From the NCBI RefSeq assembly GCF_030730945.1, contig NZ_JAVAMS010000005.1:1-64000 (forward strand): 64,000 bases of DNA. The letters run 5' to 3'. Below the pieces are notes generated by a model. The model worked only from the letters and a program-made list of their open reading frames with translations, was not told the DNA's origin and ran no database searches. Shown piece after piece: positions 9,593-45,680 of this stretch (the stretch's first letter is position 1; the number at the start of each line of letters is the position of its first letter). Both the position numbers and the translations under genes were made by a program. Origin of the DNA: Aurantiacibacter poecillastricola (lineage in GTDB: Bacteria > Pseudomonadota > Alphaproteobacteria > Sphingomonadales > Sphingomonadaceae).

Positions 9593-9651
9593 CGCGATCC
9601 CCTGCCGCAGCGGTTTGACAGGCCCCGGCGCGCGCGCCATCCCTCCTCGTC

Positions 9652-10335
9652 ATGGCGATCATCGACGGCGACCTTACCATCCACCAGTTCGGGCAGGAAC
9701 GCGAGCCGGTGGTGCAGATCAACAATTTCAGCGGTATCGCCGGCGAACTGCTCGAGGCGGCGCGCGCCGCGCAATACGCGCCCGCCGGTGCCTATTATCC
9801 GGGCATCAGGGCGCGCGTGGATCCGTCCTATCTCGACAGGAACCGCGCCTTGTTCGTGCAGGTGTTGGGCCGCGTGTTCGGCTTCACCCGGACCGTGCGC
9901 TGCGACAGTTCGGCCTTTTCCATCGTCACCACCCCGCCCGGTGAACTCGCGCCGCTCCAGCGCATCCCCCACCATGACCAGAGCGGGGGCCAGATCGTCG
10001 CCATCATGCACTACCTGCAGGGGCCGGAAAGCGGCGGCACGGCTTTCTATCGCCACCGCCGCACCGGGTTCGAGACGATCACGCCGCCGCGCGAACAGGC
10101 CTTCCTGCAGGCCCTAGCCGAGGATGAGCGCGAGTTCGGAGAGCCGGAGGCGGGTTACTACCACGGCTCGGGCGAGCGATACGAAATGATCGGAGAGATC
10201 GAGGCGCAGCCCGACCGCCTGATCCTTTATCGCGGACAGTTGCTGCATTCGGGCGTCATCCCCGATCCTGCCCGCCTCAGCGCCGATCCGGCAAAGGGCC
10301 GCGTGACGATCAACATGTTCTTCGTCGGCAGCTGA
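9652..10335 (+). CDS. DUF6445 family protein, 2OG-Fe(II) oxygenase-like
   Basis: The 227-residue protein shows a double-stranded beta-helix oxygenase pattern: an HxD motif (His107, Asp109 in IPHHDQSGG), SGGTAFYRHRRTG, a distal histidine in LYRGQLLHSGV and a following arginine in KGRVTINMFF. These match the iron and 2-oxoglutarate binding positions and the DUF6445 family. The substrate is unknown. It sits between the adhesin and the S9 peptidase on the same strand. Confidence 0.75.
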   Translation: MAIIDGDLTIHQFGQEREPVVQINNFSGIAGELLEAARAAQYAPAGAYYPGIRARVDPSYLDRNRALFVQVLGRVFGFTRTVRCDSSAFSIVTTPPGELAPLQRIPHHDQSGGQIVAIMHYLQGPESGGTAFYRHRRTGFETITPPREQAFLQALAEDEREFGEPEAGYYHGSGERYEMIGEIEAQPDRLILYRGQLLHSGVIPDPARLSADPAKGRVTINMFFVGS

Positions 10336-10435
10336 CGCTCCTTGAAGTGGGACGGCCCCTGTTTGCGCTTCGGTTCATCCGCGCTATGAGCCGTTTCAAC
10401 CGAAACGGAAAATCCATGAAGGACCGATCCTGCCC

Positions 10436-26971: not shown

Positions 26972-27694
26972 CTATCCGTCATCCTCCATCAGCTGGCGGA
27001 TCTTCACCAGCGCCTGTGCCTTCAACTGGTGGACGCGGGGCACGCTTACCTCCAGCACCTGCGCGATTTCGGTGAGGTTGAGTTCCTCCACGAAATAGAG
27101 CTGCAACACCAGTTTCAGCCTGTCCGGCAGGGCAACCATTGCTTCACCCAGCCGGTCATTATCCTGCATCTGGGCCACGAGGGCGAAGGGATCGGGAAGG
27201 TCGGAAGCGAAGAGGTCGCTCGCCTCGTCATAGGCGCTGTCCATCGAGACGATCTGCACGTCGTCGCCCAGGTGCTGGGCCAGTTCGTCGGACGTCAGGC
27301 CTACCAGAGCGGCGAGTTCGTCATGGCTCGGCTCGCGGCCCGAGAGCTGGGTGAATTCGCGCCGCGCCTCGGCGATCTCGCGCTTGCGCTTCACCGCGCC
27401 GCGGCTGACAGGCATGGACTTGCGGATAAGGTCGAACATCGCCCCGCGCACGCGCAGCTTGGCATAGGCGGCAAAGCCGTCCTCGCCCGGCCCCTCGTGA
27501 TTGCGGGCCGCTTCGGTAAGGGCGATGAAGCCCGCCTGCATCAGGTCCTCGATCTCGATACCGTCGCGGCCCGCCCCGTTGATGTGCCAGGCCGCCTTGC
27601 GCACCATCGGGACGAAGCGCTGCACCCGCTCGCTCACGATGTCGCGGCCCTTGTAGGCGGCTGCGGCGGCGAAGGCTGTGGGTTCGTGTTTCAT
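26972..27694 (-). CDS. fliA: RNA polymerase sigma factor FliA (sigma-28)
   Basis: FliA directs late flagellar transcription. The 240-residue product has sigma-70 region 2 (RDGIEIEDLMQAGFIALTEAARN, FAAYAKLRVRGAMFDLIRKSMPVSRG), region 3 (GREPSHDELAALVGLTSDEL) and region 4 with its helix-turn-helix (LPDRLKLVLQLYFVEELNLTEIAQVLEVSVPRVHQLKAQAL). The start at 27694 overlaps the flhA stop (ATGA). Its partner anti-sigma factor FlgM is encoded 3.5 kb away, and likely target promoters are upstream of flagellin and flgM. Confidence 0.95.
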   Translation of the reverse strand: MKHEPTAFAAAAAYKGRDIVSERVQRFVPMVRKAAWHINGAGRDGIEIEDLMQAGFIALTEAARNHEGPGEDGFAAYAKLRVRGAMFDLIRKSMPVSRGAVKRKREIAEARREFTQLSGREPSHDELAALVGLTSDELAQHLGDDVQIVSMDSAYDEASDLFASDLPDPFALVAQMQDNDRLGEAMVALPDRLKLVLQLYFVEELNLTEIAQVLEVSVPRVHQLKAQALVKIRQLMEDDG

Positions 27695-29802
27695 GCGGCA
27701 AGCACCTTTTCGTGGGATGCATCGGGCAATTGCGGGGGAGCGGCGGGCGGGGCCTGCCGACCGCCGATCACCGCGAGCACCTCCACCGGCTGGCCGGGCG
27801 GCAGTTCGGCAATGGAGATGACGAGACAGGTGGGCGCACGCTGGCGCAGCAGGGCGGCAAGCGCGCGGCGGGCAGGCGGCTGGACGATAAGAGCGAGGCC
27901 GCGTACGGGGTGCTCTGCCAGCTGTGCGGAAACGGCGTCGCCGATCATGCGCGCGCAATCGGGCTCGATCACCGGCTGGCCGGTGACGGGATCCTTCATC
28001 CCGCCAAGGATCGCGCCTTCCAGCTCGGCATCCAGCGTCAGCACGCCCAGCGCCTGCGTGGGCGGGCAGATCTGTCCTACCAGCCAGTTGCCGAGGTCTG
28101 CGCGGATATGGTCCACCAGCGTGTCGAAATCCTTGGTGACCTGCAGTCCCAGCGCGAGGCTGGAGAGGATCGGCACCGGATGCGCGAGGCTGATACCGTC
28201 CGCCAGCAAGGCGCGCAGCATCCGGGTGACGGCGGCAAGCGAAAGTGGATCGGGATGGATCGCCTCGACCAGGCCGGGCGAGCGGTCCTTCACCGCATCG
28301 AGCAGGCTGCGCACCTCCTCGGGGCCCAGCAGCTGGTCGGGCCGCTCCTGCAACAGCTGGTTCAGATGGGTGGCGATAACGGTATCGGCGGCAACGGTAA
28401 GGAAACCCTCGGCCGTGGCGTGGTCCTTCTGAGCTGGCGCGATCCACATGGCGGGGCAGCCGAAGCTGGGATCGACCGTTGCCTGCCCGGTGAGGCCATG
28501 CTCTGACCGCACCTCGCCCGTATCGATCGCCAACACGGCATCGGGCCGGGCTTCCGCCCGTGCGAGTTCCACGCCGCCCAGCATCACGCGATATTCATTG
28601 GCCGGCAGTTCGAGCGAATCCCGTATACGGAATTGCGGCACGACGAAGCCGAAGCCCTGCGAGAGCTGCTTGCGCACGCCGGTAATGCGGGTGACCAGCG
28701 GCGCGCCCTGCACCTCGTCGACCAGGTGGACGAGGCCGTAACCCATTTCCAGCGTGACGAGCGTATGGTCGCTGACATCGGCGATGGCAATTTTCTGCGG
28801 CTCGTCGGGTATATCCTCCACCGCTTCGACCACCGGCGTATCTAGCTTGCGCTTCAGCGTGCGATAGAGCCAGAAGGCAAGGCCCGCGGCGGGCAGGAAC
28901 ACCATTTGCGGCATCGCCGGGATCAGGCCGATCGCGCCCAGCACCAGTGCCACGGGCAGCCAGCTGGCGGGATTGGAGAATTGCCGTCCGATCTGGCCGA
29001 CAAGATCGCTTGCATCGGTGACGCGGGTAACGATCGAAGCCGCCGCGATGGAAAGCAGCAACGCGGGCACCTGCGCCACCAGCGCATCGCCCACGGCCAG
29101 CGTGATGAAGGTCTCCGCCGCCTCGCCCGCGCTCATCCCGTAGCCGATCATGCCAAGGCCGATCCCGGCGATGATGTTGACCGCCAGGATCAGCATGGCG
29201 GCAATGGCATCGCCCTTCACGAATTTGGATGCACCATCCATGGAGCCGTAGAAATCGGCCTCGGTGGAGACTTCGACACGGCGCGCCTTGGCTTCCTCGG
29301 CTGTCATTAGCCCTGCTGCGATATCGGCATCGATGGCCATCTGCTTGCCGGGCAACGCATCCAGCGTGAAGCGCGCCGAGACCTCGGACACGCGCCCCGC
29401 GCCCTTGGTGATCACCACCAGGTTGATGATGAGCAGGATGATGAAGACGAACAGGCCAACGGCGAAATTCCCGCCGACGAGAAAGGCCCCGAAGCTCTCG
29501 ATCACCTGCCCCGCAGCGCCCTCCCCCTCGTGCCCGTTCACCAGCACGATGCGGGTGGAGGCGACGTTGAGGGCGAGCCGGAGCAGGGTTGCGAACAGCA
29601 GCACGGTAGGAAAGGCGCTGAAATCGAGCGGCTTGGTGGCGTTCAGGGCCGCCATCAGCACGCCGATGGAGAGCGCCATGTTGAAGACGAAGAACACGTC
29701 GAGCAGCACTGTGGGGATCGGCAGCACCATCATGGCGATGAGCGCGAGGATCCCCGCAGGCAGAGCGAGCGCGGCTAGTTTGAAGGGGAGCTTTGCAGTC
29801 AC
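27691..29802 (-). CDS. flhA: Flagellar biosynthesis protein FlhA
   Basis: FlhA is the large export-gate component of the flagellar type III secretion system. The 703-residue product has eight N-terminal membrane helices, the FHIPEP-family stretch YGSMDGASKFVKGDAIA, and the cytoplasmic domain from about residue 330, including VIRVPQFRIRDSLEL-like and ERPDQLLGPEEVRSLLDA segments. It starts with GTG in a GTGA overlap with the transglycosylase gene and overlaps fliA at its end. Confidence 0.96.
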   Translation of the reverse strand: MTAKLPFKLAALALPAGILALIAMMVLPIPTVLLDVFFVFNMALSIGVLMAALNATKPLDFSAFPTVLLFATLLRLALNVASTRIVLVNGHEGEGAAGQVIESFGAFLVGGNFAVGLFVFIILLIINLVVITKGAGRVSEVSARFTLDALPGKQMAIDADIAAGLMTAEEAKARRVEVSTEADFYGSMDGASKFVKGDAIAAMLILAVNIIAGIGLGMIGYGMSAGEAAETFITLAVGDALVAQVPALLLSIAAASIVTRVTDASDLVGQIGRQFSNPASWLPVALVLGAIGLIPAMPQMVFLPAAGLAFWLYRTLKRKLDTPVVEAVEDIPDEPQKIAIADVSDHTLVTLEMGYGLVHLVDEVQGAPLVTRITGVRKQLSQGFGFVVPQFRIRDSLELPANEYRVMLGGVELARAEARPDAVLAIDTGEVRSEHGLTGQATVDPSFGCPAMWIAPAQKDHATAEGFLTVAADTVIATHLNQLLQERPDQLLGPEEVRSLLDAVKDRSPGLVEAIHPDPLSLAAVTRMLRALLADGISLAHPVPILSSLALGLQVTKDFDTLVDHIRADLGNWLVGQICPPTQALGVLTLDAELEGAILGGMKDPVTGQPVIEPDCARMIGDAVSAQLAEHPVRGLALIVQPPARRALAALLRQRAPTCLVISIAELPPGQPVEVLAVIGGRQAPPAAPPQLPDASHEKVLAA

Positions 29803-30647
29803 AGGCCCAGAGCCTCCAGCCGGGCATAGGCGCTGCGGATATGGGCGGGTGCTTCGCCGCCATTACCGGCGAGGCCGAAGCTGTCGCGCAGCGTATCCGC
29901 CATCGATGCGCGCGGCGCGGACGGCGGTAGGGAAGCCGATACGTTCGCGAAACTTGCGGGAAAGCGCGATGCCTGCACGCTAGCGGTTGCCTCAGCCGTG
30001 GGCGGATTGCCGGGGAACGCCATGGCGCTGTCCACCTTCGCGCGGATCACGCCCATCACCTCCTGCACGGAGCGCGGTGCGCCCGACGGCTTGTTGAAGA
30101 TCGCGCGGTTGGCAGCGGCAGCCTGCGGAAGGAGCGCGGTGGCGGAGCTATCCGGGTCTGTCGCCAGCACGGATAGGAAGCGCGAGGCGCCGGCCGCACC
30201 GAGGAAATGCGCGAGGTAGAGCTCGCTCGCATCGGGGTCGCGGCCCAGCACGCCTTGCAGCGCCGCGCGATTGTCCGTCGCGAGCGCGCCTGCCATGAGC
30301 GAGCTTGCCTGCGGATCGAAGCGCAGGTTCATGATGGCATCGCGCATGGCCGGGTCCGTCACGCTGGCGCGCCCGCCGCGCGTCTCGATCGCGCGCGCCA
30401 TGTCGCCATAACCCAACGCCTCGCCATGCCTGTCGAGCGTGGCGAGCCAGGTCTGGTCGATGAACTGGTAGAGACCGCTGGCGCTGGAGGTGCGAGCCTG
30501 TGCGCGCGGGTTCAGCCCGCTTTCGATGCTTGCCTGCGCCATCAGGTAGTTGAAATCGACGCCGGTGCGCTCTGCCGCGCGGGCGATGGCCTCACGCGGC
30601 TGAGCAGCCCTTGCGGGCAGTGCTGATGCAGATATGCGGTCGGTCAT
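29799..30647 (-). CDS. Flagellar lytic transglycosylase (SLT domain)
   Basis: The 282-residue product has an N-terminal SLT/goose-lysozyme-like domain: the catalytic glutamate is Glu42 in QASIESGLNPRAQA, followed by TSSASGLYQFIDQTW. There is no evident signal peptide, so export may go through the flagellar apparatus, which is an inference. As the flgJ gene here lacks a muramidase domain, this enzyme probably opens the cell wall for rod assembly, like SltF in other alphaproteobacteria. It is transcribed from a sigma-54 promoter at 30689-30704 and overlaps flhA. Confidence 0.85.
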   Translation of the reverse strand: MTDRISASALPARAAQPREAIARAAERTGVDFNYLMAQASIESGLNPRAQARTSSASGLYQFIDQTWLATLDRHGEALGYGDMARAIETRGGRASVTDPAMRDAIMNLRFDPQASSLMAGALATDNRAALQGVLGRDPDASELYLAHFLGAAGASRFLSVLATDPDSSATALLPQAAAANRAIFNKPSGAPRSVQEVMGVIRAKVDSAMAFPGNPPTAEATASVQASRFPASFANVSASLPPSAPRASMADTLRDSFGLAGNGGEAPAHIRSAYARLEALGL

Positions 30648-31415: not shown

Positions 31416-31931
31416 TTATCCCAGCGGGATGACGGCTCGCTGCGGCGTGCGGACCTGTGCGCGGATGACTTCGCGATTCCCCTCGGGCCGGATACGGATC
31501 CAGCTGCCGATGGCGCCATCCTCCAGCGCCTCGCCCTGCTGGCTGACGGCGAAACCGCGGCCTTCGACCGTGACGGTCATGACCTGTCCGCGCTCCACGA
31601 CGATCTGGGGTTCGACTTGCTCAAATGCGGCTGGTGCCGTGGTGCTTCCACGATTGACCGGGACGAACACGCGCCACCCCGCGCCCGAGGGGCATTCCAC
31701 CCGCACCATGTCCGCCCCGCGCCCGTGCCAGGCGAGTGCGAGGGGCTGCAGACATTCCGCGAGGCGAAGGCGGCGGTCCACCTGGTGCCGTGCACCGCCG
31801 GGCGTGCCGATGGCCGCGCCGGTGAAGGCGGCAACCTGCGCATCGATGGCGGCAGGATCGGTGAAGGGGCCGGATTGCGCTGCGGCAGGGGCGGCAATGA
31901 CAAGGGCGGTGGCAAAAATTAGGCGTTGCAT
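31416..31931 (-). CDS. flgA: Flagellar P-ring assembly chaperone FlgA
   Basis: FlgA is a periplasmic chaperone for FlgI polymerisation. The 171-residue product has a signal peptide (cleavage after PAAA, residue 18) and the SAF-like C-terminal domain: VERGQVMTVTVEGRGFAVSQQGEALEDGAIGSWIRIRPEGNREVIRAQV. It follows the exbD-like gene by 21 bases on the same strand. Confidence 0.92.
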   Translation of the reverse strand: MQRLIFATALVIAAPAAAQSGPFTDPAAIDAQVAAFTGAAIGTPGGARHQVDRRLRLAECLQPLALAWHGRGADMVRVECPSGAGWRVFVPVNRGSTTAPAAFEQVEPQIVVERGQVMTVTVEGRGFAVSQQGEALEDGAIGSWIRIRPEGNREVIRAQVRTPQRAVIPLG

Positions 31932-31952: not shown

Positions 31953-32369
31953 CTATTCACCCGCGTCCTGCAAGCCGCGTGCCAAGCCCGGATCGGCATC
32001 GTGGGCAAAGCGCGCGATCACCAGCGTCTCGCGCGCGGGCTGGACGATCACGCGCGGCTCCACGCCCGCCGCGATGGCTTCGCTCGCCAAGCCTTCGGTA
32101 CGCAGCGTCACGGCCTCGCGATCGCCGGCAGCATAATAGCCCTGCACCGTCAGCTGCTCTCCGGGCGAGAGTGGGTGATCTGCCAGCATGGCTGCGAGCG
32201 GCGGTGCGCCGGGGGCATCGACATGGAGCGACACCGTGACACCTTCTGCCGGGGAGCCTGCAGGGACATCCTGCGTCTGCGCCGCCAGGGCGCCGGCCAT
32301 GGTGATGAACAGGATCAGCGAGAGGTCCGCCAGCGGGACCAGCCAGCTCCCGTTGGCTGCGCGGATCAC
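31953..32369 (-). CDS. ExbD/MotB-like single-pass stator subunit without peptidoglycan-binding domain
   Basis: The GTG at 32369 overlaps the stop codon of the MotA-like gene (GTGA) and gives 138 residues. Residues about 9-29 form one membrane helix, WLVPLADLSLILFITMAGAL, with an aspartate (Asp15) placed like the proton-binding aspartate of MotB, TolR and ExbD. The remaining 110 periplasmic residues lack the OmpA-type domain that anchors MotB to peptidoglycan. With its neighbour it should form a proton-driven pair. Function within the flagellar locus is unknown. Confidence 0.7.
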   Translation of the reverse strand: MIRAANGSWLVPLADLSLILFITMAGALAAQTQDVPAGSPAEGVTVSLHVDAPGAPPLAAMLADHPLSPGEQLTVQGYYAAGDREAVTLRTEGLASEAIAAGVEPRVIVQPARETLVIARFAHDADPGLARGLQDAGE

Positions 32370-33022
32370 CCTGCCTTCTCCAGCCGGTGCACGCTCGCTT
32401 TGGGACAGCTTTCGGACAATTGCCCGGCCAGCCATTCGATCAGGCGCTCGCGGTCTGCTTCCTCTGCCAGCATCCGCCGCTCCAGCACCCGGGCGAGCGG
32501 ATGAAGCACGAGGTGGGCCAGCAGCAGGCCATAGAGCGTAGTGAGGATAGCCATGCCGATCGCCCCCGGCAGCTGCCCTTCCGCACCCTCGGCGAGAGTC
32601 ATCTGCGAGAGGGCGAACAGCGTGCCCGCCATACCGAAGACCGGTGCCATTTCCGCGGCATGGCGAATGGGAGCCAGCGCGGCCTTGCGGCTGCGGACGC
32701 GTTGCTGCTGGAATTCCTCGTGCACGGCAACAAGGTTTCGCAGCGACCGGCCGCGCACCAGCGCATCGGTAGCGCTGGCAATCTCGCGGTCGGTACTGGC
32801 GACGGGGCTGGCACGCACTACCCCGTCACGGCGCATGGCCTCGACATCGTGCGCGATCTCGGCACGGGCAGTTTCGTAGTCGAAGCGGCGGGTAAACAGG
32901 GACAAGATGGCGCGGGACGCCGCCAGGGTTTCCCGCGAGCCGCTTGCCAGCACCGTTGCCAGCAGCGTGCCGCACAGCACGATGGCCGCGCCCCCTGCGT
33001 CCCACAATCCCGAAAGCTCCAT
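32366..33022 (-). CDS. MotA/TolQ/ExbB-like proton-channel protein
   Basis: The start at 33022 (MELSGLWDAGG) has AGGAGG seven bases upstream; the open frame beyond it is not coding-like. The 218-residue product has an N-terminal helix (about 9-27), a cytoplasmic stretch, and two helices: HAAEMAPVFGMAGTLFALSQM (121-141) and AIGMAILTTLYGLLLAHLVLHPLA (154-177), matching the MotA pore helices including the conserved proline (Pro127). True MotA is encoded separately at 41054, so this is a second stator-like protein. It is the first gene of the minus-strand arm, divergent from flgB. Confidence 0.8.
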   Translation of the reverse strand: MELSGLWDAGGAAIVLCGTLLATVLASGSRETLAASRAILSLFTRRFDYETARAEIAHDVEAMRRDGVVRASPVASTDREIASATDALVRGRSLRNLVAVHEEFQQQRVRSRKAALAPIRHAAEMAPVFGMAGTLFALSQMTLAEGAEGQLPGAIGMAILTTLYGLLLAHLVLHPLARVLERRMLAEEADRERLIEWLAGQLSESCPKASVHRLEKAG

Positions 33023-33153
33023 CACTGCACCTCCTGCGATCATCAGGACGACCGGCAGTCCCGGCAATTTAGGGCGGCACCTGTTTGCCGCGTGCGGCAA
33101 GGGCTTGCCGCCTTCCTCGCATTCCACCGGCGCAACCGGCGGGCAAATCAAAC

Positions 33154-33169
33154 TGGCACGCCTCTTGCT
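33154..33169 (+). promoter_or_regulatory. Sigma-54 promoter of the flgB operon
   Basis: TGGCACGCCTCTTGCT matches the sigma-54 minus-24/minus-12 consensus fully, with ten bases between GG and GC. It is followed by TGAAACATTGCG and lies about 50 bases before flgB. The activator is probably the AAA+ protein encoded at 44412. Confidence 0.92.
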
Positions 33170-33220
33170 GAAACATTGCGCACGAGGGCGAGCAATCGTC
33201 CGCAAGCAAGGGAATGCATG

Positions 33221-33568
33221 ATGAGCGACAGGCTATTCGGCATACATGGGGCAGCGCTGGAACTGCGCTCGCACCGCATGGGGCTGCTGACGTCCAACAT
33301 CGCCAATGCCGCAACGCCGGGTTACCAGGCGCGCGATATCGACTTCGCCTCCGCGCTGGAAGCCCGTCTGGGCGGTGCAGACCGCAATGGCGCAATTGAC
33401 GCCGCGACCCGCTACCGCGTGCCCACCATGCCCTCGATGGACGGCAACACCGTGGAACTTGCCAACGAACAGATGGCCTTCGCCGAAAACGCCGTCGCCT
33501 ATTCCGCCACCCTTACCTTCCTCAACGGACGGGTCGAGACGGTGAAGCGCGCGCTGAAGGGGGAGTAG
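33221..33568 (+). CDS. flgB: Flagellar basal-body rod protein FlgB
   Basis: FlgB is a proximal rod subunit. The product (115 residues) has the family opening LFGIHGAALELRSHRMGLLTSNIANAATPGYQARDIDF and the C-terminal helix FLNGRVETVKRALKGE. Two adjacent ATG codons (33218 and 33221) are possible; the second is better spaced from AAGGGA. It is the first gene of the plus-strand rod-hook operon, downstream of the sigma-54 promoter. Confidence 0.94.
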   Translation: MSDRLFGIHGAALELRSHRMGLLTSNIANAATPGYQARDIDFASALEARLGGADRNGAIDAATRYRVPTMPSMDGNTVELANEQMAFAENAVAYSATLTFLNGRVETVKRALKGE

Positions 33569-41053: not shown

Positions 41054-41917
41054 ATGTTTCCAGCTATCGGGATCGTCATCCTGCTCCTCATGGTGTTCGG
41101 AGGCTTCGTGATCGCCGGCGGCTCGCTGGGCCCGGTGCTGGCGGCCCTGCCGCTGGAGATGATGATCATCGGCGGTGCGGCCATCGGGGCGACCGTGATC
41201 GGCAATTCCATGCACGAGCTGAAGCTGCTCGGCTCCGGCCTGGGCAAGGTGTTCAAGGGGCCGCGCTACTCTGCGAACGATCACGTGGCGGCCATCGCGC
41301 TCACCTCAAAGCTGATGAAGATCATGAAGACGGAAGGACCCGTCGTGCTGGAATCGCACGTCACAGACCCGCAGAATTCCGCGCTTTTTGCCGAGTATCC
41401 CGCGCTGCTGGCGGACGAGGCGCTGACCGGCCTCATCTGCGACACGCTGACGCTGATCGTGGTTTCCTCCGGCTCGCTCGACACCCATGCGGTGGAAGAC
41501 GTGATGGACAATGCCATCAAGGGCCAGTTGCACGAGATGGACGAACCCGCCCATGCCCTGCAGTCACTGGCCGACGCACTGCCCGCGCTGGGTATCGTCG
41601 CCGCCGTGCTGGGCGTCATCAAGACCATGGGCAGCATCGACGAGCCGCCAAGCGTACTGGGCGGCATGATCGGATCGGCGCTGGTGGGCACGTTCCTCGG
41701 CGTGCTGCTGGCCTATGGCTTCGTCGGCCCCATGGCCGGCCGGCTAAAGCAGGTGAACGCGCATGATGCGCAGATCTTCCATTCGGTGAAGCAGGTCCTG
41801 ATCGCCTCGCTGCACGGTTATCCGCAACCGCTGGTGGTAGAGAGCGCACGCTCCGGCCTGCCGCCCGCGCATCGTCCGGCGTTGACCGACCTGCTCGATA
41901 CGCTGCGGGGCAAATAG
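41054..41917 (+). CDS. motA: Flagellar motor stator protein MotA
   Basis: MotA is the cytoplasmic-membrane stator subunit that couples proton flow to rotation. The 287-residue product has four membrane helices, with IGIVILLLMVFGGFVIAGG at the N-terminus, the long cytoplasmic loop (KLMKIMKTEGPVVLESHV) and the pore helices LADALPALGIVAAVLGVIKTM and MIGSALVGTFLGVLLAYGFVGPMA. It is followed directly by motB. Confidence 0.96.
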   Translation: MFPAIGIVILLLMVFGGFVIAGGSLGPVLAALPLEMMIIGGAAIGATVIGNSMHELKLLGSGLGKVFKGPRYSANDHVAAIALTSKLMKIMKTEGPVVLESHVTDPQNSALFAEYPALLADEALTGLICDTLTLIVVSSGSLDTHAVEDVMDNAIKGQLHEMDEPAHALQSLADALPALGIVAAVLGVIKTMGSIDEPPSVLGGMIGSALVGTFLGVLLAYGFVGPMAGRLKQVNAHDAQIFHSVKQVLIASLHGYPQPLVVESARSGLPPAHRPALTDLLDTLRGK

Positions 41918-41918
41918 G

Positions 41919-42794
41919 ATGGCGAGCGCCGCGCTGAAGCCGGTCGAGGACGAACAGCCGCAAGAACCACCGCCCGCGCCGATCATCGTCAAGAAAGTGA
42001 TCGTGGCAGGCGGCGACGGGCACCACGGCGGCGCGTGGAAAGTGGCCTATGCCGATTTCGTCACCGCGATGATGGCGTTCTTCCTGCTGCTCTGGCTGCT
42101 GGGTGCTACGACCGAGGATCAGCGCAAGGGCCTTGCCGACTACTTTACCCCCACTCTGGTTAAGATGCGCGAACAGTCCGCGGGGTCAGACGGGATGCTG
42201 GGCGGCTCCTCGCTGGTGGATGCCGACAACTATCCCCATGCCGCCGGACAGACCGGCACGCAGTCGATCACGATCCCGCGCGACACAGCGGGCGGCCCGA
42301 CCGAGGGCGGCGCGCCTGCAGCCGAGAGGCGTCGCGCGGCCATTGCCGACAGGATCGAGGATGCCATGTCCCAGCGCGAGCGCCTTGCCCGCCTGGTGCG
42401 ACAGGTGCGCGTGCTGACTGTTCCGGAAGGCATCCGGATCGACCTGGTCGACGATGCCGATTTCTCGATGTTCCACCTCTCCTCCACAGTGTTGACGCCC
42501 GAAGCTCGGCAATTGCTGGAGATCATCAGCGCGGCCATGGCCGAGGAAAGCGGCCAGCTGGTCGTTCGCGGGCATACCGATGCCCTGCCCTGGCGTGACG
42601 GCGTTGCGGCCAACAACTGGTCGCTTTCTGCCGGCCGGGCCGAGGCGACGCGGCAGGAAATGCTGCGCAACGAGCTTTCCGAAGCCCGTTTCGACCGGAT
42701 CGAGGGCGTCGCCGATCGCGAATTGCTGATCCGCGACGATCCCACCGACCCGCGCAATCGTCGCATCTCCATCCTGCTGCTCGACAACCGCTAA
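41919..42794 (+). CDS. motB: Flagellar motor stator protein MotB
   Basis: The 291-residue product has a short cytoplasmic N-terminus, one membrane helix with the proton-binding aspartate (Asp46 in YADFVTAMMAFFLLLWLLG), a linker, and an OmpA-like peptidoglycan-binding domain (LVVRGHTDALPWRDGVAANNWSLSAGRAEATRQEM, NRRISILLLDN). It anchors the MotAB stator to the cell wall. It is the last gene of the flgB operon. Confidence 0.96.
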   Translation: MASAALKPVEDEQPQEPPPAPIIVKKVIVAGGDGHHGGAWKVAYADFVTAMMAFFLLLWLLGATTEDQRKGLADYFTPTLVKMREQSAGSDGMLGGSSLVDADNYPHAAGQTGTQSITIPRDTAGGPTEGGAPAAERRRAAIADRIEDAMSQRERLARLVRQVRVLTVPEGIRIDLVDDADFSMFHLSSTVLTPEARQLLEIISAAMAEESGQLVVRGHTDALPWRDGVAANNWSLSAGRAEATRQEMLRNELSEARFDRIEGVADRELLIRDDPTDPRNRRISILLLDNR

Positions 42795-44278: not shown

Positions 44279-44411
44279 AGTCCGCTCTTGCCCATTCGCA
44301 TTCATCACCGGCCACCCGACCTACGTGTTCGCACGGGGGATTAAGTTCAGCGTTCCTTGGACGTTCGGGCCTCATTGCGACCCTCGCGAAACAGTTAACA
44401 GGGGTGTCATC

Positions 44412-45676
<1,265 letters not shown>

Positions 45677-45680
<4 letters not shown>

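Follow-up and report, generated by a model that had tools for sequence, protein, structure and literature searches.

Within a flagellar locus of Aurantiacibacter poecillastricola (family Sphingomonadaceae), two overlapping genes encode a second stator-like pair, here called MotA2 and MotB2, which we read, with a probability of roughly one half, as a flagellar stator unit in reduced form that assists the ordinary MotAB. The DNA analysed, hereafter the window, comprises 64,000 nucleotides (positions 1 to 64,000 of contig NZ_JAVAMS010000005.1, assembly GCF_030730945.1). Descent, predicted fold, the missing helix 1, the shortened B subunit, conserved pore residues and flagellar linkage are supported by computation. 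The two genes, which share the four-base overlap GTGA, and the codons of the residues discussed below are as follows.

32366..33022, minus strand: MotA2, stator A subunit of the flagellar (PomA-like) type without transmembrane (TM) helix 1, 218 amino acids (aa)
32642..32644, minus strand: codon of MotA2 Pro127, the TM3 pore proline, invariant in 27/27 MotA2 and 46/46 four-TM MotAs
32498..32500, minus strand: codon of MotA2 Pro175 (TM4), invariant in the same two sets (27/27 and 46/46)
31953..32369, minus strand: MotB2, a mini-MotB of 138 aa with a GTG start, a TM helix (10-32) and a predicted small OmpA-type domain (44-123)
32325..32327, minus strand: codon for the membrane aspartate of MotB2, Asp15 (position derived from the start at 32369)
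32100..32102, minus strand: codon for Arg90 of MotB2, which falls where OmpA/MotB carry their peptidoglycan-binding arginine; invariant in a 22-row alignment

Sequence and predicted structure support assignment of MotA2 to the flagellar MotA/PomA type and not to ExbB. MotA2 scored 41.7 bits against Pfam MotA_ExbB (cut-off 22.9), a model for which the window genome held four matches above the cut-off, two of them inside the window. Its best NCBIfam match was PomA, under that model's equivalog cut-off, and all ten PDB matches of a MotA2 profile at E ≤0.01 were MotA or PomA. The predicted structure, with a predicted local distance difference test score (pLDDT) >90 over most of its length, aligned to PomA residues 24-229 and contained helices at residues 29-43, 49-66 and 79-91 and a continuous helix at 94-143; the model shows an unbroken TM3 and a torque-interface domain made up of four or more helices. 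An ExbB/TolQ identity was ruled out by sequence (NCBIfam and PDB profile matches) and by fold. An earlier note on this DNA had called the large subunit 'MotA/ExbB-like', a description of which the first half stands and the second does not.

The model contained three membrane-type helices and began at TM2. Simple hydropathy on 27 MotA2 rows gave three helices in 22 and two in five, the window protein among the latter. MotA_N matched none of the 27 proteins scanned, window MotA2 included, and a six-frame search of whole genomes found no MotA_N within 1.5 kb of any of 53 MotA2 loci. Residues ahead of TM2 numbered 7-19 in the 27 rows versus 28-40 in 46 four-TM MotAs, a count in which the starts of Sphingomonas-type rows were picked by hand and the sequence upstream was inspected by eye; that inspection revealed no hydrophobic stretch upstream of MotA2 in diverged relatives. 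A TTG start at 33067, which would add a helix-1-like stretch, was rejected: 14 of 15 relatives begin at a Met matching 33022, and the single longer row shows no such stretch. As judged from sequence and model, MotA2 is without the four-helix 'square fold' that includes TM1.

The MotA-type pore helices with a conserved proline, remarked on earlier, were recovered with both P127 and P175. The pore-matching positions P127, G133, T134, G165 and P175 were invariant in 27/27 MotA2, T161 and T162 were kept in all nine rows of the window's group, and 24 columns were invariant across 75 MotA2 from that group. The rotor-facing side differed. We take the relevant charges to be R90 and E98 of MotA, equivalent to R88 and E96 of PomA. 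Window MotA2 retains an arginine (Arg64) and carries Ser72 where the glutamate would sit, and Sphingomonas-type MotA2 have Asp in 18/18 rows at the position where four-TM MotAs mostly carry Glu or Gln; the pattern was thus altered in different ways in two MotA2 branches. From these patterns MotA2/MotB2 is likely an ion-driven ring, contact with the rotor is plausible, though retuned, and anchoring would be short.

MotB2 has one hydrophobic helix, which carries Asp15; this residue was invariant in 22/22 rows of one alignment and 84/84 of a larger one, window protein included. Diverged MotB2 orthologues are recognisable MotBs, profile relatives being Sphingomonas and Zymomonas entries of 147-195 aa named 'flagellar motor protein MotB', and MotB_plug matched at E ≤0.1 in 14 of 22 scanned MotB2. 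NCBIfam recorded no OmpA-type domain in window MotB2. Structural neighbours of the predicted domain (residues 44-123) were mostly of the OmpA/MotB/Pal type, and MotB2 probably retains a degenerate OmpA-type fold. The register of Arg90 was set through bridging sequences; the arginine at this place presumably binds peptidoglycan, as in OmpA. The spacing between the TM Asp and this Arg had a median of 81 residues in 36 rows of the window's group and 100 in 34 Sphingomonas-type rows, and MotB2 is without the long plug-to-anchor linker. The earlier reading of the small protein as 'ExbD-like' with no anchor domain was rejected, given its diverged MotB relatives and predicted structure: the single helix with Asp15 stands, and the claim of no OmpA-type domain is probably wrong at fold level. 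The same note had envisaged an ordinary MotB with a hidden peptidoglycan-binding domain; the hidden domain is probably there, but MotB2 is not ordinary.

The neighbouring genes bearing on flagellar linkage are listed here.

31416..31931, minus strand: flgA, directly downstream of MotA2/MotB2 (label from the earlier note and recurring synteny)
33218..33568, plus strand: flgB, divergent, upstream of MotA2 (label from synteny)
41054..41917, plus strand: MotA1, the ordinary MotA of the same locus (TIGR03818 321.5 bits, above cut-off; MotA_N 95.8 bits)
41919..42794, plus strand: MotB1, the ordinary MotB with plug and OmpA domain (PF13677 and PF00691 above cut-off)

The minus-strand order MotA2, MotB2, flgA, with the flgB arm running in the opposite direction from 33218, agrees with what had been noted, as does the ordinary motA-motB pair 8 kb away. 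We scanned named genomes for MotA2 relatives and kept the best 80 of 212 for locus reading. MotA2 adjoined flgB in all 80 loci, MotB2 adjoined MotA2 in 80/80, and in 76/76 loci holding both flgA and flgB MotA2 sat between them. Sixty further stretches comprised 34 weaker MotA2 hits, two stretches of genome G033 (the FlhA locus of that genome among them) and a further 24 FlhA loci, covering 25 of 38 FlhA loci without a nearby MotA2 hit. MotB2 adjoined MotA2 in 31/33 further loci; of the other two, L118 stops at a contig end and L120 carries a degenerate copy. In addition, the further loci plus two more gave the same placement in 32/32 that had MotA2, flgA and flgB. Most related flagellated genomes examined keep the pair at the same spot, and the recurrence of pair and position across the family is far beyond chance.

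We also drew 119 family genomes and disregarded three four-TM hits that belong to a different type of flagellar locus (G007, G052 and G056; the G007 frame is cut, and its placement rests on the tree). MotA2 occurred in 53 of the 119; FlhA was present in all 53 and MotA_N in 52, and none of the 35 FlhA-less genomes had MotA2 (Fisher p 4e-12, kinship ignored). Outside the family but within the order, we read out 19 hits, and all were MotAs with four TM helices lying close to an flhA of a more distant kind. The earlier proposal that a second, stator-like pair belongs with the flagellum is thereby supported, and the suggested survey of sphingomonad genomes showed co-occurrence with flgA; a pair usually located apart from flagellar genes, the contrary outcome then envisaged, was not what we found, the pair lying in the flgB-flgA slot at every locus with both genes.

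Nine flgA-flgB junctions lacked MotA2, eight of them being bare gaps of about 186-299 bases. Such junctions, together with L120 (around 9642-10427), where MotA2 is degenerate with its TTLYG motif lost and no MotB2 was found, and the long branch of the window's group, are what would be expected of a decaying, near-functionless stator remnant carried in the flagellar locus. We regard this explanation as the least probable of those considered: across the family, conservation extends to the pore residues, to Asp15 and to the pairing of A with B, and the 24 invariant columns in the window's group argue in the same direction. In L170, of the same genus as L120, the pair is wholly absent; with the degenerate copy in L120, we read this as loss in progress. 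At the ninth junction (L159:5179-6638) two genes fill the slot, one LPP20-like and the other with FlgT_N. FlgT_N occurred in 2/119 family genomes, both without MotA2/MotB2, and the slot may host alternative motor-support genes.

By descent the pair goes back to a PomA-type MotAB, from which MotA helix 1 and the greater part of the MotB linker have been lost; on the accessory-stator reading it has been retained to assist the ordinary MotAB. By homology with the family, five MotA2 would surround two MotB2, and ion passage at Asp15 would turn the MotA2 ring. That the cytoplasmic domain of MotA2 is complete speaks for continued contact between ring and flagellar rotor, where the ring may add or tune torque; the short MotB2 would grip near the motor base, on peptidoglycan or the P-ring, and not through a long tether. 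The main text of PMC12505986 defines flagellar stators ('FIT') by the square fold, a large torque interface, plug and linker, and an expanded peptidoglycan domain. By these marks MotA2/MotB2 is a derived stator and not a standard member, since the torque domain and unbroken TM3 are kept and the other marks are lost or reduced.

Several observations weigh against this accessory-stator reading. Helix 1, part of the fold that the same text calls diagnostic, is absent. Pfam recognised neither plug (MotB_plug) nor OmpA domain in window MotB2, and the TM Asp-to-OmpA Arg spacing is 75 residues versus 194 in MotB1. The acidic residue at the rotor-facing Glu position is found in 0/9 rows of the window's group versus 27/46 four-TM MotAs, and the neighbouring arginine, present in 46/46 four-TM MotAs, is kept in 8/9 rows of that group and 2/18 of the Sphingomonas type. 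The branch of the window's group is very long (2.29 changes per column), a possible sign of a new function. The gene is dispensable: 31 FlhA-positive genomes are without MotA2, 24 of them with MotA_N. Finally, no intact locus read had MotA2 as sole stator. G036 (L226/L227) keeps the pair, with flgK and motA1 not found in the stretch read and MotA_N not found genome-wide; we dropped it as a test of sole-stator function since its flagellar locus looks decayed.

The altered rotor-facing residues beside an intact pore, the shortened B subunit and the coexistence of a MotA_N-type MotA in 52/53 genomes could also be explained if MotA2 or MotB2 mixed with MotA1/MotB1, or took up stator positions in a weak or blocked form, tuning or braking the motor. 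MotA2 and MotA1 are far apart in the tree, which makes mixed rings unlikely, and the joint conservation of A with its matched B suggests that the two form a separate complex. We therefore consider modulation of the main stator improbable, if somewhat less so than a mere remnant.

The most probable of the rivals, though still rather unlikely, is a torque-free energiser co-opted by the flagellum, in which Tol/Exb-like ion use, together with FlgA, would help the P-ring or rod to pass or the outer membrane to be cleared at the flagellar base. The pair directly precedes flgA and shares its strand, probably as part of one operon; its three-TM A subunit and B subunit of about 140 aa are now similar to ExbBD/TolQR in size and topology; the window's group has lost the rotor-facing acidic residue; and the LPP20-like and FlgT-like genes of L159 occupy the same slot. 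Against this, MotA2 retains stator-type sequence and fold with a full cytoplasmic domain, several genomes without the pair keep their flg genes, and no TonB/TolA-like partner was noticed among the listed neighbours, which are flagellar genes (no dedicated search was made). The accessory stator is accordingly favoured over energiser, modulator and remnant, in that order. Tentatively, we also entertain the possibility that a stator minus its first helix and long tether became a Tol/Exb-shaped ion-driven device at the flagellar base, fixed in one family for a job other than main torque, such as passing the P-ring or rod, clearing the envelope or docking stators.

Among known systems, the four-helix torque-interface stators PomAB/MotAB (PDB 8brd, 8zyv, 8ucs) share with MotA2/MotB2 the fold of the A subunit with its cytoplasmic domain, the unbroken TM3, the pore residues, the membrane Asp and probably an OmpA-type domain in B. 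Unlike them, MotA2/MotB2 has no TM1, no long linker, an OmpA domain predicted to be degenerate and changed rotor-facing residues, and it exists beside a full MotAB. ExbBD/TolQR resemble it in the three-TM A subunit and in a single-TM B subunit whose periplasmic domain is small, but ExbB/TolQ are not closest to MotA2 in sequence or fold. In the Sphingomonas/Zymomonas 'MotB' entries plug and OmpA domains are still recognisable, making them less degenerate than window MotB2; we found no paper on their function. The peptidoglycan-binding domain of Salmonella SiiA (PDB 6qvp) resembles MotB2 at fold level only, in another genomic setting. No paper describing the pair was found in open-licence literature: the main text of PMC12505986 contains neither 'Sphingo' nor 'Zymomonas', PMC9797736 lists Zymomonas mobilis ZMO0602 and ZMO0603 as motB1 and motA1, and PMC10954123 concerns a different MotA2/MotB2, in Cereibacter, 'Sphingo' being absent from its available text.

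The pair thus represents a family-wide, flagellum-linked stator lineage without the four-helix fold proposed as diagnostic in the main text of PMC12505986, beside a complete MotAB in 52/53 genomes. Running from a recognisable mini-MotB to an almost unrecognisable one, it offers a natural series for asking which stator parts serve ion flow, rotor contact and anchoring. It poses a puzzle as to how little a stator needs, and raises the question whether flagella employ additional ion-driven units for work besides spinning. In Aurantiacibacter and its relatives, stator B subunits are hidden behind the label 'hypothetical protein' given to entries next to flgA.

Two features lie between flgB and MotA2.

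33154..33169, plus strand: sigma54-type promoter site TGGCACGCCTCTTGCT, towards flgB
33096..33109, minus strand: inverted repeat GGCAAGCCCTTGCC, a possible activator site

The sigma54-type pattern towards flgB occurred in 108 of 110 related flgB-MotA2 gaps versus 0.2 expected in shuffles, and the inverted-repeat pattern GGCAA-N-TTGCC in 80/110 versus 0.1. Towards MotA2, a strict sigma54-type site was found in 0/110 gaps and a looser pattern in nine (1.2 expected). A possible binder of the inverted repeat is the sigma54-activator-like protein encoded at 44325-45680 (label by eye). Elsewhere in the locus, a lytic-transglycosylase-like gene (29799-30647, label by eye) lies between flgN and flhA and recurs in 73/80 named loci. 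Window FlhA (27691-29802) scored 729.5 bits against a TIGR01398 cut-off of 772.1, and several relatives also fell under it, so that cut-off-based surveys could miss flagella in this branch.
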